A DNA stretch of 33,799 nt from Comamonadaceae bacterium (GTDB lineage: Bacteria > Pseudomonadota > Gammaproteobacteria > Burkholderiales > Burkholderiaceae_C): NCBI GenBank assembly GCA_025352965.1, contig JANXRP010000068.1:1-33799 (forward strand), given 5' to 3'. Below the pieces are notes generated by a model that did no database searches, was not told the origin of the DNA, and worked only from the letters and a program-made list of their open reading frames with translations. How positions within the stretch are numbered: the stretch's first letter is position 1; each line of letters opens with the position of its first letter. Shown here piece by piece: positions 11,824 to 19,376 of this stretch. The translations under genes and the position numbers were made by a program.

Positions 11824-14721
11824 TTAAAGCGTCCGCGCCACGTCACGAATCTCAAAGAACTCAAGCACATCGCCGACTTCAATGTCGTTGTAGCCCTTGA
11901 TGTTCAAGCCGCATTCGAAGCTTTCTTTGACTTCTTTTGCATCGTCTTTGAAACGCTTGAGCGATTCGAGCTCGCCCGTATAAATGACGGTATTGTTGCG
12001 TAGCAAACGAAGGCGTGCTGTGCGCCGCACGATGCCTGTGAGCACCATACAACCCGCAATCGATCCGACCTTGCTGGCCTTAAACACTTGCCTGATTTCG
12101 GCAGAGCCAATGATCTCTTCACGTTTTTCAGGTGCGAGCATGCCAGACATCGCTGCTTTCAGTTCGTCCACAGCGTCATAAATGATGTTGTAGTAACGAA
12201 TATCCACACCGTTGTGCTCGGCATGTTTGCGTGCTTGTGCGTCAGCGCGTGTGTTGAAACCAATCACCACCGCTTTAGACGCAATCGCCAAGTTGACATC
12301 GCTCTCGCTGATACCGCCTACGCCTGCATACACGATCTGCACCTTGACCTCGTCGGTCGACAGCTTGAGCAGTGACTGCCCCAGCGCTTCTTGCGAACCT
12401 TGCACATCGGCCTTGATGATGATGGGCAACATTTGCACGTCGCCAGCCGCCATATCGGTAAACATGTTCTCCAGCTTGGCCGCTTGCTGCTTCGCCAATT
12501 TGGTGTCACGGAACTTGCCAGAACGGTAGTTTGCAATTTCACGGGCTCGGCGCTCGTCCGCCATCACCATGAAATCATCACCCGCCATCGCAACTTCAGT
12601 CAATCCTTGAATTTCGACAGGAATCGAGGGGCCAGCCGATTTGATAGGCTTGCCGTTTTCGTCCAACATGGCACGTACGCGCCCCATGCAAGAGCCCGCG
12701 AGTACCACATCGCCCGCTTTGAGTGTGCCTGATTGAATCAACACCGTCGCCACAGGGCCACGGCCTTTATCTAGCCTAGCTTCCACGATCAATCCTTTGG
12801 CCATGGCTTCAACTGGCGCGCGTAGCTCCAAAATCTCAGCTTGCAAAAGAACTTGTTCTAAGAGCTCGTCAATGCCTTGCCCCGTGCGAGCCGAAACTTG
12901 CATGAACGGAGAGTCGCCACCAAATGCTTCTGGCACCACTTCTTCAGCAATCAATTCGTTTTGAACACGGTCAGGGCTAGCACCTGGCTTGTCGATCTTG
13001 TTAATCGCCACCACAATTGGAACCCCCGCCGCCTTGGCGTGCTTGATCGCTTCTTTAGTTTGCGGCATCACGCCATCATCGGCCGCCACCACCAAAATCA
13101 CGATATCGGTTGCCTTAGCACCGCGTGCACGCATCGCCGTAAAGGCTTCGTGACCAGGCGTATCTAAGAACGTGATCATGCCACGCGGCGTGTTGACGTG
13201 ATACGCACCAATGTGCTGCGTAATGCCGCCTGCTTCGCCCGCTGCCACTTTGGCCGTACGGATGTAATCTAAAAGCGATGTCTTGCCATGGTCAACGTGA
13301 CCCATGACGGTCACCACAGGCGCACGCGGCAACATTTCGGACGAAGACGCAAGCACTTCTTCTTCGGTAAACGCTTCCGGGTCATCCAGCGCAGCAACCA
13401 CCGCTTTGTGCCCCATTTCTTCGACCACGATCATCGCCGTGTCTTGGTCAAGCGGCTGATTAATTGTGACCATTTGGCCAAGCTTCATGAGGTGCTTAAT
13501 GACCTCCGAAGCCTTGACCGCCATCTTGTGTGCGAGGTCAGCAACCGTAATGGTTTCTGGCACATGCACTTCAATGACGCGAGCTTCTACTGGCTCTTGC
13601 GGTACTTGCTCCTCACGATCATCGCCCTTGCGCTTACCACGCGGACCACCGCGCCAGGAGCCACGCCCCACGCCACCCGAGCTATCGCCGCGGGTTTTGA
13701 GGGCTGCTTTTTTCTTTTGCTCGTCCGTCCAAGTGGACGACAGTTTTTCGGATTTAACTTCCTTTTTGCCGCCTTTTGCGTCCGTTGTCGTCGTTGCAGG
13801 TTTCTCGCCCACCTTAGGCTTCACACCCGTCCCAACGGCAGGCTTATGCAGCGTGCCTTTGGCGACTTCAGGTTTTTTGACTGGTTCTGGTTTTTTGGCA
13901 ACCATCACACCCCGACTCGGGGCACTCATCATGGCGCGAATCGCATTAGCTTCATCCATCGCCTTTTGACGACGGTCTTTTAAATCAACCGCTTTCGCCG
14001 CATCATCTGTTTCCTGTTGCGCAGCTAATTCAGCTGGCGTTGGACCTGCAGGTATGGCAACAACCACAGGAATAACTGCCGCTGCAACTGGTGCTGGCGC
14101 AGGCTTAGCCGGTGCTTGCTCGGGAATGATCTTGCCAATCGTTCTTTTCTTCGGCGTTTCCGCCTTCACTTCTACGGCACTGTGCACAGCATCCGCAGGC
14201 TTCTCCGCCAGCGCCATCTCGGCCGCAGCTTGTGCCGCTCTTGCGACCTCTTTGGCTTCGCGCTCACGCCTGCGCTCAGCTAACTCTTCCTCTTGACGAC
14301 GAAGTAGCTCTGCCTGACGCATCGCTTCTTGCTCACGCTTAGCAAGCTCTGCATCATCAAGCACATGTGGGGCGGGGGCGACTGGCGCCGCAGGCTGCAC
14401 CGTGGATGCAGCGTCTGCATCGTCACGCTGAATAAAGGTACGTTTTTTACGTACTTCAACCTGAATGGTGCGCGCCTTACCTGTGCTATCAGCCTGCTTA
14501 ATTTCGCTGGTCGATTTTTTTACAAGGGAGATTTTTTTACGCTCACCCGTGGCTGTGCCATGGCTGGACTGCAAAAATCCTAGCAATTTTTGTTTGTCAG
14601 CATCCGTCAGCACATCACTGCTGCTAGATTTGCTAACACCCGCACTGCTTAGTTGCTCTAGCAGGGTATCGGTTGTTTTTTTGAGCTCGGTTGCGAACTC
14701 GGCGACTGTAGTCGTGGACAT
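11824..14721 (-). CDS. infB: Translation initiation factor IF-2
   Basis: IF-2 is the GTPase that places initiator fMet-tRNA on the 30S subunit and promotes subunit joining. The 965-residue protein has an N-terminal IF2N-like domain, a long Ala/Lys/Glu-rich charged linker (about residues 110-370) with a glycine/arginine-rich patch near 350, a second IF2N domain ([19 protein letters not shown]), and then the G domain. G motifs are GHVDHGKT (about 472-479), DTPGHEAF and NKID. The C-terminal fMet-tRNA-binding domains are complete. The ATG at 14721 follows a GGAGA sequence by ten bases, and the gene starts 16 bases after nusA. The linker contains in-frame Met codons that could serve as internal starts, as is known for the E. 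coli gene, but none has an obvious SD. Confidence 0.98.
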
Positions 14722-14737: not shown

Positions 14738-16303
14738 TCATGTTTGAGCCGCGAACCAATGTGCGCGTGCTTTAATAATCAATGCCTTCGCGGCATCTTC
14801 ATCGAGTCCAGTCAATTCTTGCAACTCATCCACAGCTAGGTCAGCCAAATCGTCACGGGTATGAACGTTGCCTTCTGACAACTTACCCACCAACGTCGAG
14901 GTCATGCCTTCTAGGTCGAGCAAGTCTTGCGACGCCTCCTCAACACCTTCTTCGTTAGCAATCTCTAACGTCAAGAGCGCATCTTTAGCACGCGTGCGCA
15001 GTTCAGTCACGGTGTCTTCGTCAAAACTTTCGATCTCAAGCATCTCTTGGATCGGTACATAGGCCACTTCTTCCAAAGTGTTGAAGCCTTCGGCAATCAA
15101 AATGTCTGCAACTTCTTGGTCAACGTCGAGTTTCTCCATGAATAGCTTGCGCGTCACCGATAACTCGTCAGCTTGTTTTTGCGCCGATTCGGCTGCGTCC
15201 ATGATGTTGATGCGCCAACCTGTGAGCTCTGCTGCTAAACGCACGTTTTGTCCACCGCGACCAATCGCAATAGCAAGGTTCTCTTCGTCTACCACCACAT
15301 CCATCGCGTGACGCTCTTCGTCCACCACAATCGATGACACATTCGCAGGCGCCAATGCACCAATCACAAACTGTGCGGGGTCTTCGCTCCACAGCACAAT
15401 GTCGACGCGCTCGCCTGCCAGCTCAGTTGTCACGGCAGTGACGCGGCTACCGCGTACACCGACGCATGTCCCAATAGGGTCAATGCGTTTGTCTTCGGTG
15501 TGCACAGCAATCTTGGCACGAGAACCTGGGTCACGCGCACAAGATTTGATGTCCAACAAACCTTGTTCAATTTCAGGCACTTCGTTCTTAAAGAGCTCCA
15601 TCATGAACTCAGGACTGGTACGTGACAGCACAATTTGCGCACCACGCAAGGTGGTATCGACTTTCATAATCATGGCACGCACGCGATCACCCGAACGCAA
15701 GTTTTCCTTTGGAATCAAATCGTTGCGACGCAAGCGTCCTTCGACACGGCCGCTCTCCACAATGATGTCGCCTTTGTCTAAACGCTTGACGGTACCAACC
15801 AAAATTTTCTCACCGCGAGCCATGAAGTCTGCGAGCACCATTTCGCGCTCAGCATCACGGATTTTTTGCAGAATAACTTGCTTAGCCGTCATCGCACCAA
15901 TACGCCCAATCGGCAAAGACTCAATCGGCTTCTCAATGTAATCACCTTCTTCTAAATCCGCCAACTGCTCTTGCGCTTCGGATAACAGCTCTTCGGCATC
16001 TGGGTTTTGCAAACCTGCGCTATCAGGCACCACCAACCAACGGCGGAAGGTGTCATAGTTACCTGTATCACGGTCAATTTGCACGCGAATATCAACTTCG
16101 CCTTCGTAGAACTTCGCCGTCGCTTGCGCCAAGGCTGCTTCGACAGCACCGTACACAATGTCTGCTTCGACATTTTTTTCGCGAGAAATGGCATCAACCA
16201 ACATCAGCATTTCGCGGTTATGCGTCGGCTTGGCGGCCTCTGCAATCTCTAACGCTTTTTTCTTCGACACACGCTTCACAGGTTTTTTAACGACTGCTTC
16301 CAT
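14738..16303 (-). CDS. nusA: Transcription termination/antitermination factor NusA
   Basis: NusA binds RNA polymerase, promotes pausing and hairpin-dependent termination, and takes part in antitermination. The 521-residue protein has the RNAP-binding N-terminal domain ([16 protein letters not shown]), an S1 domain ([19 protein letters not shown]), KH1 ([12 protein letters not shown]), KH2 ([16 protein letters not shown]) and two C-terminal acidic repeats. I chose the ATG at 16303 because AGAGAGG precedes it by five bases; a TTG at 16342 lacks support. Even so, the protein carries about 28 lysine-rich residues ([11 protein letters not shown]) ahead of the position where NusA normally begins, and no start codon sits at the usual place. 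It lies 39 bases after rimP and 16 bases before infB. Confidence 0.97.
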
Positions 16304-16308
16304 GATGA

Positions 16309-16315
16309 CCTCTCT
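16309..16315 (-). promoter_or_regulatory. Ribosome-binding site for nusA
   Basis: AGAGAGG on the minus strand ends five bases before the ATG at 16303. It supports that start and therefore the lysine-rich N-terminal extension of NusA. Confidence 0.6.
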
Positions 16316-16342
16316 ACTTAAAAATAATTCTGTTGACGACAA

Positions 16343-16897
16343 CTACCCGCGGCCTTTGAAATTCACGATGGGTGCCAAGCGCGCCTCACGAATTTCAGAC
16401 CACTCAAACCCCAGCGCGTTTTGCGTTGCGGCATCAATTTTTTTCTGACTCACTTTGGCACCTGGCTTCAGTGGCTTTGGCTCGTCTCGCCACACAATTT
16501 GCCAAGCCGCAGCCGTTTTCTCTAAGGTGCCGCGAAACTTCCTGCGACTCACCGTAATCCCTTGTTCGGACACCTGCCCAGCTTGCCCAATCGGCATCTT
16601 TAGCGTGATATCAATTACCTCGCCCACAAACCGAGCTAAATCCATTTCGTGCCGCAGCAAGCGATCAATTCCAGGGCTAGACACCTCTAGTCGCGAGTAA
16701 TCCACACCTTCGACCTCCAGCACATACTGGAGTTGCCGCGTCACGCGCTCGCAATCTTCCACTTGCACATACTGCTCTGCATCGCCCACGGCATGCGGCA
16801 ATTCAATCGTGACTCGAAGCAAACCGCCAGCAGAACGCGTGATTTCGACGAGGTCTAGGCCCAGTCCTTTAACGGTTTGCTCGATGATGGTTTGCAT
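16343..16897 (-). CDS. rimP: Ribosome maturation factor RimP
   Basis: RimP is a cytoplasmic 30S assembly factor. The 184-residue product has the two expected domains: an N-terminal alpha/beta domain with LGLDLVEI, VEDCERVTRQLQYVL and the strongly conserved LEVSSPGIDRLL (about residues 71-82), and a C-terminal SH3-like barrel. It is the first gene of rimP-nusA-infB-rbfA-truB-typA. There is no SD before the ATG at 16897. Instead the upstream 12 bases are U-rich and follow a terminator-like hairpin, so ribosomal protein S1 binding or an almost leaderless mode of initiation may apply (inference). The start fits the usual betaproteobacterial N-terminus. Confidence 0.95.
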   Translation of the reverse strand: MQTIIEQTVKGLGLDLVEITRSAGGLLRVTIELPHAVGDAEQYVQVEDCERVTRQLQYVLEVEGVDYSRLEVSSPGIDRLLRHEMDLARFVGEVIDITLKMPIGQAGQVSEQGITVSRRKFRGTLEKTAAAWQIVWRDEPKPLKPGAKVSQKKIDAATQNALGFEWSEIREARLAPIVNFKGRG

Positions 16898-16909
16898 AAA
16901 AAATGAACG

Positions 16910-16935
16910 AAAAAAAGGGCGGTTGGTATCCGCCC
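16910..16935 (-). terminator. Intrinsic terminator-like hairpin just upstream of rimP
   Basis: On the minus strand a GC-only six-base stem, GGGCGG with CCGCCC, encloses a seven-base loop and is followed directly by seven U residues. It lies 29 bases after the MFS transporter stop and 12 bases before the rimP ATG. It has the form of a Rho-independent terminator for the MFS gene. It also sits in the only visible leader of the rimP-nusA-infB operon, so it may act as an attenuator. No competing antiterminator stem is evident. Confidence 0.8.
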
Positions 16936-16962
16936 TGCTTGCCTTATTGGTTGATGCATCAG

Positions 16963-16991
16963 ATTATACGCTACGCAGCCCTCTTAGTCGC
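16963..16991 (-). promoter_or_regulatory. Candidate promoter for the rimP-nusA-infB operon
   Basis: A perfect -10 hexamer TATAAT lies at 16963-16968 on the minus strand and overlaps the stop codon of the MFS gene. A weak -35, GCGACT (three of six matches), lies 17 bases upstream at 16986-16991. Transcription would begin near 16956 and the RNA would enter the terminator hairpin about 20 bases later. An 8-bp palindrome GATGCATC (16953-16960) covers the predicted start site. No promoter candidate is seen between the hairpin and the rimP ATG. Confidence 0.45.
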
Positions 16992-18571
16992 ACCAGAGCA
17001 ATCGTCGCAAGCGGAATCACTAACCCCAAGCACGCCACCCAAATCAGCGTGGGCGTGAGGTCAGCGTAATTGGCTGCAGTCGTGAGTTGTTGGGTCACGG
17101 GATCGCGTACCTCGCGCGCCAATACAAAAATTTGATTCAAATACTTGGTACCTAGCTGGGCGGCAGACAAAGCAAGATTGGTAAACGACGCCATCACCGC
17201 AAAGTACGTGGCTTTGAGATGCGGCGGTGCGGTTTGCGCAATCCATGCCAACATAGGAATCATGGCGATTTGTGCGAGTGGTGATTCGAGTGCCGTATCG
17301 GCAATACCAATAAATCTAGCATCCACCACGCCACCCGTCATTCGTGCCGTCCACTCATGCAAACCCATGCTCATGCCGATATTAGGCAACGCAATCACAA
17401 ACTGCGCGACTGACAACCACACCACCGTAGAAGCCACCGACCGATTAGCCACCCAACCACGCAGGGCAAACAAACCCGCCAGCGTGAGTGCGTAGCTAAT
17501 GAACGACAACACCGCTTGAAAGTGCTGGTCGTAGCCCAGCACATCAATCGCCCACCACGTGACCCCTTCGCCCGCACTAGGTACAGCACGGAACATAAAA
17601 ATAACGATGGCGGTTGCCCACAGCACTTGCTTGGCCTCACGCGGCAAATCGGTCGTGAGATTGCGAATCAAAAAAATTAAAATCGACAGCGAGCCGATAA
17701 AGACAAGCTCTTGCCCAAATTGTTGTACCCAGCGCCAAGGTAGTAAGCCCATGCCCACCGTAAATGCGATAAAGATGGCACTGCCGATGAGAAGCGTCCA
17801 ATTGGGCGTGGTCGTGGTGACACTGCGGATTTCCGCCTGCTTTTGCATCCAATGCCACAGCCAAATGCCAAGCACCGAGATGAGTGGAATCGCCAGCGAG
17901 CCTTCATACACACGCAAATAAAGCGTCGATTTTTCAACTTGCGTGAGTGTTTCCACGCCCGAGAACAACCAGATATTGAACACAGCCGTCAAAAGCGCAC
18001 CGCTCATCACCGCAATCCGTCCTAAAGTTTGCATCGTCGTATGCATCGCATGCAAAGCCACGTCGGATAAGGGCTGGCCGAGGGCGTCATAAGTCGGCAC
18101 GGCTTCCACCGTCATCGCATCAGCCACCACGTCTTGCAAGACATAGCCCATGGGCAGCAAAAGCGTGGCAATGACAAACCACGTTTGCGTGCTGGCGTAC
18201 ACGGTCATGGCGGCAAGATTGCCAATTAAGCCTACAAAGATCAAAAAGCTAGCTGCCATCAACAGTCCGCCCACGTACACCAGCCAGCTTTTAAAACGCC
18301 ACAGCAAATCGACGACATGACCTATTGGCATTTTGATGACGTAGGGCATGGCTCCCCAAAACGCAAGGCTTGCCAAAAATTCAGCCGATAAATCGAGATG
18401 CTCTTTCACAAAAAATGTGCCTGCAATCGCTGAGAAGCCTTGGATGCCTGCGGCAAAGTAAATCATCATCGGCGGTAGATACGACCACTGCCAATTGTTT
18501 TGCAGATCGCGAATTTCGCTGCTTATGCCATGCGAGAATCGCTTTTTTACATTTTCAAATAGGTTCATCAT
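16964..18571 (-). CDS. Major facilitator superfamily transporter, BT1/AmpG-like
   Basis: This is a large (535-residue) polytopic membrane protein with about 12 or more hydrophobic spans. Near residue 20 it has [21 protein letters not shown], then [29 protein letters not shown] with the polar GHVVDLLWR, a typical inter-helix loop of the BT1 (folate-biopterin) and AmpG groups. Around residue 140-155 the motif [14 protein letters not shown] matches the D-x3-D pattern of these families. The substrate is unknown. The start is uncertain: an AAGGAAG lies 12 bases before the ATG at 18571 and at better spacing (six bases) before an in-frame TTG at 18577; ATGs at 18568 and 18610 are alternatives. Every choice touches or overlaps the divergent fabI start. 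The stop overlaps the predicted rimP promoter. Confidence 0.7.
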
Positions 18572-19376
18572 GGGCAACACAGGCTTCCTTACAGGCAAAA
18601 AATTACTCATCACAGGTGTACTGTCCAACCGCTCTATTGCGTATGGCATTGCCAAAGCTTGCCATGCGCAAGGCGCGGAACTGGCGTTTAGCTATGTAGG
18701 CGAACGCTTCAAAGACCGCATCACCGAGTTTGCCGCAGATTTTGACTCCAAACTGATTTTTGATTGCGATGTGGGTAGTGACGAGCAAATCGGTCAAATG
18801 TTTACTGATCTCGCTAAGACGTGGCCGATGTTTGATGGCTTTGTTCACGCCATCGGTTTCGCCACACGCGAATCCATTTCGGGCGATTTCTTGGAAGGCT
18901 TATCCCGCGAAGGTTTCAAGATTGCGCACGATATCAGCGCCTACAGCTTCCCAGGCATGGCCAAGGCGGCGTTGCCGTACTTGAATCCTAAATCTGCGCT
19001 ACTCACGCTCACCTACTTGGGCGCTGAACGCGTCGTTCCTAACTACAACACCATGGGGCTTGCAAAGGCTTCGCTAGAGGCATCGGTTCGCTACTTGGCG
19101 GAGTCACTCGGCCCCAAGGGCATGCGCGTCAATGGCATTAGTGCGGGTCCTATCAAAACATTGGCGGCCAGTGGCATCAAAGGCTTTGGCAAGATTTTGA
19201 GTGTGGTCGCTGAAACCTCACCGATTCGCCGCAACGTGACGATTGAAGATGTGGGCAACGTCGCCGCGTTTTTGCTGTCTGATTTGGCGGCAGGCGTAAG
19301 CGCCGAAATTACCTATGTGGACGGCGGATTTAGCAACGTGGTGGGCGGGATTGCGGAGCCCAGCACATCAGAATAA
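18570..19376 (+). CDS. fabI: Enoyl-[acyl-carrier-protein] reductase (NADH), FabI
   Basis: FabI reduces trans-2-enoyl-ACP in the last step of each fatty acid elongation cycle. The 268-residue protein has the divergent SDR nucleotide-binding start [15 protein letters not shown] (about residues 16-30) and the catalytic set Tyr149, Tyr159 and Lys166 (Y-x6-K in NYNTMGLAK), spaced exactly as in E. coli FabI. I chose ATG 18570 ([13 protein letters not shown]), preceded by TAGG at six bases; the frame is open further upstream but that part does not look like FabI. The gene is boxed in: its start overlaps the divergent MFS gene, and its last 64 bases overlap the convergent glycosyltransferase. A promoter must lie within the MFS coding sequence; I found no strong one. 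Confidence 0.97.

Follow-up and report, generated by a model that had tools for sequence, protein, structure and literature searches.

What does a terminator-like hairpin do when it lies just ahead of a translation operon? The minus strand of the 33,799-nt stretch of DNA analysed here (the window) carries rimP (16343..16897; Pfam RimP_N, 3.4e-11), nusA (14738..16342; Pfam N-terminal, S1, KH and HHH domains) and an open reading frame at 11824..14721 that we take to be infB from its translation. Upstream of rimP, on the same strand, is a gene for an MFS-type transporter (16964..18655; Pfam BT1), and the hairpin stands between the two. It might simply end the transporter mRNA, or it might control the operon behind it. 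We favor the latter, at a probability of roughly 75%: a promoter-proximal attenuator of the rimP-leader type, at which termination would be partial and NusA most likely raises it, thereby lowering expression of its own operon. The window comes from an assembly of 2.29 Mb in 203 contigs; its closest named relatives are for the most part metagenome assemblies of Comamonadaceae.

Read on the minus strand, the region begins with a perfect TATAAT (16968-16963) overlapping the TAA stop codon of the transporter gene (16966-16964), exactly as a preliminary description of this DNA had placed it. We regard it as the -10 element of a rimP promoter with a probable transcription start about 7 nt past it, near 16956; the coordinates of the TATAAT can be read off directly, while the start suggested earlier fits the spacing and is putative. 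No -35 element was recognisable at this promoter either by reading the window sequence or in a consensus promoter scan, which did not list the promoter at all, and the candidate promoter rests on its conserved -10. A short 5' leader (16937..16956) would then run from the start to the terminator hairpin, AGGGCGG-AUACCAA-CCGCCCU (16916..16936), in which GGGCGG (16935-16930) pairs with CCGCCC (16922-16917). The GC-rich six-base hairpin with seven Us described previously at 16910-16935 is thus correct and gains one A-U pair (16936/16916), making seven pairs, six of them G-C, around a 7-nt loop. The U7 tract (16910..16916), whose position 16916 is the one that can also pair with 16936, is the predicted site of release. 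Twelve U-rich bases (16898..16909), kept in all four congeners, separate it from the rimP ATG at 16897, before which no Shine-Dalgarno sequence is visible; on this point, too, the earlier account holds.

With a strict definition (at least six G-C pairs and at least 7 T in 8), the hairpin is the sole match in the 33.8-kb window, both strands included, and none was found in 20 dinucleotide shuffles. A looser terminator scan gave four sites in 4 kb, which is no excess over shuffles (mean 5.5). Folding yielded z -2.67 for the hairpin with short flanks (3/200 shuffles as good), -1.46 for the 63-nt leader (19/200) and -1.05 for a 101-nt stretch reaching into rimP (31/200). Fold stability by itself is unremarkable; the weight is borne by the strict hairpin measure and by conservation.

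We gathered 261 rimP-encoding loci, which came to 253 distinct ones after removal of five duplicates (L031-L034, on contigs identical to L002-L005, and L071, the same as L013) and of three with too little or no usable upstream sequence (L061, L102 and L220, the last being rimP of G034); L111-L118 are matches to Rfam RF01770 and not rimP loci. The family set joins 26 loci whose genomes are placed in the family to others assigned by titles and similarity. All of the evidence is comparative, and since the genomes are related, the conservation counts represent non-independent samples. A terminator-like hairpin was detected by script in 239 of the 253 loci, and a GGGC/GYCC hairpin signature in 91 of 99 distinct family upstream regions. 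All eight unscored family loci (L013, L015, L020, L022, L023, L024, L098 and L119) turned out on reading to carry a comparable hairpin and T-tract, differing by a G-U pair, a bulge or a slip. A -10 element (at least 5/6 matches) is present no more than 60 nt upstream of the hairpin in 89 of the 90 family loci with enough flank, L108 being the exception, as against 2/90 in control stretches 66-126 nt upstream and 0/90 at 126-186 nt. The gap from -10 to hairpin is 14-27 nt, in a tally that still includes the duplicate L071, removed from the final counts. In the other families of the order the signature was found in 74 of 91 loci and a -10 close upstream in 43 of 71 (controls, 19/71 and 9/71); in other orders of the class the figures were 32 of 63 and 11 of 31 (controls, 8/31 and 15/31). 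The hairpin is therefore widespread, while the tight arrangement of promoter and hairpin is clear in the family, is less marked in the order and does not rise above background beyond it. This looser promoter arrangement outside the family counts against the attenuator reading.

Within the hairpin, the GGGC/GCCC core occurs in 212 of 276 hairpins within 250 nt upstream of rimP and in 2 of the 79 from other parts of these loci, a set lying mostly in coding flanks. The rows of our alignments of family leaders (A1) and of leaders from the order's other families (A2) were picked for GGGC in the 5' arm, so its invariance there is not independent evidence. The inner stem pairs are nearly invariant and thus say little about structure; the pair that closes the core is C-G in 10, U-A in seven, A-U in four and unpaired in three of 24 diverse family leaders. 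Three of five whole-structure measures exceeded shuffles (0/500 as high), and the other two, both-side pair changes (102/500) and further pair types (337/500), were within the shuffle range. The consensus fold of 24 family leaders of 58-63 nt each shows the terminator hairpin alone, with no antiterminator. An outer stem, GACC...GGUC, reaching past the U-tract in family leaders was considered and rejected: in 12 of the 24 rows one of its pairs cannot form, and pairing holds in only 70% of the helix cells.

Family leaders in A1 also conserve a 5' segment, (T)CACGACC, for which we saw no clear pairing partner. The genus of the window has neither this segment nor the longer hairpin-to-start spacer of its relatives and is for these reasons an extreme variant. 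Many leaders in A2 have (G/A)TTTGTG following the U-tract, past the expected release point.

A separate element, TTGVAAATCAA, often inside CCTTGAAAATCAAGG, precedes the -10, with at most one mismatch, in 45 of the 91 family loci (for example L055, L041 and L089) and was seen in 0 of 93 control stretches; it is not in the window. It stands 17 nt from the -10 in eight loci, 26-28 nt in 36 and 38 nt in one, so that the shortest corresponds to perfect -35 spacing and the distances step by about one helical turn. It is possibly a phased regulator site, to judge from this pattern. Seven exact copies of the 14-mer CTTGVAAATCAAGG were counted, spread over 5 of 24 genomes; a single one, the sole copy in G006, sits at a rimP promoter.

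A covariance search of relatives with the promoter kept upstream was the check that the preliminary description had proposed. The family leader model (R1) matched all 24 searched family genomes at E<=0.1, its best match lying directly upstream of rimP in each. Eleven of the 24 genomes are absent from the model, three of these being close congeners of a member. In the window's genome the rimP leader is the sole R1 match at E<=0.1. A second, weaker match occurs elsewhere in five family genomes; of two further matches that we read, one follows an open reading frame that presumably encodes glutamine synthetase. Of 16 genomes from other families, four had weak R1 matches (E 0.025 or worse), all of them away from rimP. 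A model of the whole order (R2) was discarded as unspecific, its window match having E 0.69 with many other matches listed; it does match at rimP of G034. The Rfam model RF01770 (rimP), alike in gene context by its name, had no match in the window at the gathering score, a loose threshold brought out none in the leader, and none of 40 relatives rose above the cut-off; at the loose threshold it matched in 26 of the 40 genomes, and among the matches listed none was at rimP. A loose Rfam search of the leader returned mir-228 and PhrS, both rejected as chance-level matches.

The plainest account of the hairpin is that it is the 3' terminator of the MFS gene and that the -10 match arose by chance. 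The transporter gene is on the same strand, so its mRNA would also meet the hairpin, and its frame ends 27 nt upstream, a position shared by four of the genus's five genomes; the lack of a recognisable -35 fits as well, as does the longest upstream open frame being same-strand in 68 of 94 family loci, a crude measure that still counts L071 once too often and is unreliable for orientation in GC-rich DNA. We therefore argue from loci checked by reading or by Pfam. In the fifth genome of the genus (G002, locus L004), a divergent open frame replaces the MFS gene, with weak transposase-like Pfam matches (HTH_32 and rve, both below curated cut-offs). From the -10 to the ATG this locus and the window agree in 65 of 71 alignment columns, and in the 60 nt upstream of the -10 they agree in 34 of 67, which is within the shuffle range (18/200 shuffles as high). 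Elsewhere in the family the neighbor may be an ABC transporter ATPase (L041), an M16 peptidase (L036) or an SNF2 helicase (L070), and a divergent gene for a solute-binding protein stands upstream in L077 (by Pfam) and L037 (by similar sequence), where there is no upstream mRNA needing the terminator. The hairpin and -10 persist beside the divergent neighbors of G002, L037 and L077, and a -10 by chance would hardly keep its 14-27 nt distance in 89 of 90 family loci. Loss of the hairpin in close relatives had been named beforehand as evidence against attenuation; hairpin and -10 are in fact kept in all four congeners (G001-G004), including the one without the MFS gene. The linkage to the upstream gene expected of a plain 3' terminator was not found, and as the hairpin holds a fixed place behind the promoter while the neighbor varies, the terminator belongs to the downstream operon. 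We consider the plain-terminator account very improbable.

If the terminator belongs to the operon, its position constrains how it could work. Only 12 nt lie between the U-tract and the ATG, leaving no room for a rimP promoter downstream of the hairpin, as had been argued before, and RNA entering rimP, whether it starts here or farther upstream, therefore has to cross the terminator. RNA polymerase would start near 16956 and reach the intrinsic terminator with its GGGC/GCCC core within about 47 nt, the hairpin beginning at about +20 and release falling near +47, in keeping with the earlier figure of about 50 bases. Some polymerases would release a short RNA there and others read through into rimP-nusA-infB. 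A ribosome at the rimP start could not block termination, because the start codon is downstream of the predicted release point. Nor is there a conserved upstream open reading frame in the leader: a leader peptide was considered and dropped, as the ATG at 16959-16957 is kept in none of the four congeners. With the ribosome excluded and no such frame conserved, a factor acting on the polymerase remains, and NusA is the natural candidate, being encoded in the operon, proposed for this leader class in 2010 and implicated by reports from Bacillus subtilis and Streptococcus agalactiae (below). NusA would most likely boost termination at the leader, such that high NusA lowers its own operon.

The same anatomy could serve as a fixed throttle, a promoter-proximal terminator that reduces expression of the operon by a constant factor and senses neither NusA nor anything else. 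The consensus fold, being the hairpin and nothing more, has no antiterminator or ligand-binding fold and suits this idea; the GGGC/GCCC core, however, varies less than a mere terminator would require (the 212/276 against 2/79 above, the latter set mostly from coding flanks), and leader termination in B. subtilis is stimulated by NusA, as stated in a passage of a review (PMC12288461). On balance we think a fixed throttle unlikely. Less probable by far is that the short terminated RNA is the main product, a trans-acting small RNA with readthrough into rimP secondary. Conservation of CACGACC in family members without clear pairing would be in its favor, but the segment is missing in the genus of the window, and the best R1 match precedes rimP in every family genome searched; we give this idea almost no credence. 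What counts against attenuation itself is that a fairly strong hairpin (seven pairs, six G-C, U7) precedes a usually essential operon, so that heavy termination must be relieved somehow.

The comparison with known systems draws on excerpts of the published accounts. A rimP-leader attenuator was named by Naville and Gautheret (2010, PMC2965389), with NusA proposed as the factor. As in that class, the terminator here is 5' of rimP, the first gene of a nusA-infB operon; the GGGc...gCCC stem and U-stretch have their counterpart in GGGCGG/CCGCCC followed by U7; the distance from terminator to start, 4-130 nt in the class, is 12 nt after U7 and 18 nt after the hairpin end; and no antiterminator is visible in the consensus fold. 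Because of these shared features, the leader is an attenuator of the already known rimP-leader kind, despite the miss by RF01770. What differs from the published description is that a -10 conserved at near-fixed spacing ahead of the hairpin is documented across the family, whose stem is also longer, GGGCGG/CCGCCC. This near-fixed promoter-to-hairpin spacing is a new detail, and so is the genus variant, which leaves 12 nt to an ATG lacking a Shine-Dalgarno sequence. For B. subtilis, the review states that nusA is controlled by leader termination that NusA stimulates (PMC12288461); that operon likewise has an intrinsic leader terminator, with the NusA dependence reported there and extended here by analogy, which makes NusA a plausible trigger of termination. 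The rimP leader of S. agalactiae is also very short, although in a Firmicute: RNA-seq placed termination 31 nt past the mapped start and also showed a long readthrough RNA, and NusA feedback was suggested (PMC4448216). NusA feedback on its own operon is reported for Escherichia coli (PMC6511841, PMC2965389), where metY-nusA-infB resembles the present case in this regulation and in having terminators upstream of rimP but differs in what lies ahead of rimP, namely a tRNA gene plus several promoters and terminators (PMC6511841). The figure legend of a Herbaspirillum survey names 'rimP' among cis-encoded RNAs. The main texts of two transcript papers on Burkholderia cenocepacia contain neither nusA nor two candidate locus tags. 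In the openly available rimP and nusA leader literature, as excerpted, we recognised no description of a Comamonadaceae version, and the supplementary lists of the 2010 paper may contain cases.

Comamonadaceae leaders of this kind, with promoter and terminator within about 50 nt and little else conserved, could provide a compact test system for NusA feedback, and the genus of the window, at only 12 nt from U-tract to ATG, is the minimal case. One could go further and suppose that, with the terminator so near the promoter, the leader gauges free NusA at the moment when sigma gives way to it, the GGGC/GCCC core serving as a recognition mark and, in the window genus, the U-rich tail being shared with the SD-less start. 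The outcome at the terminator would then depend on the speed of NusA replacing sigma on the polymerase just past the promoter. We regard this elaboration as doubtful, indeed rather improbable.

A last observation concerns the order's other families. In 21 of the 64 loci fetched from them (L190-L254, L220 excluded), the contig ends less than 1,000 nt upstream of the rimP match, which hints at repeated sequence upstream of rimP in these families.
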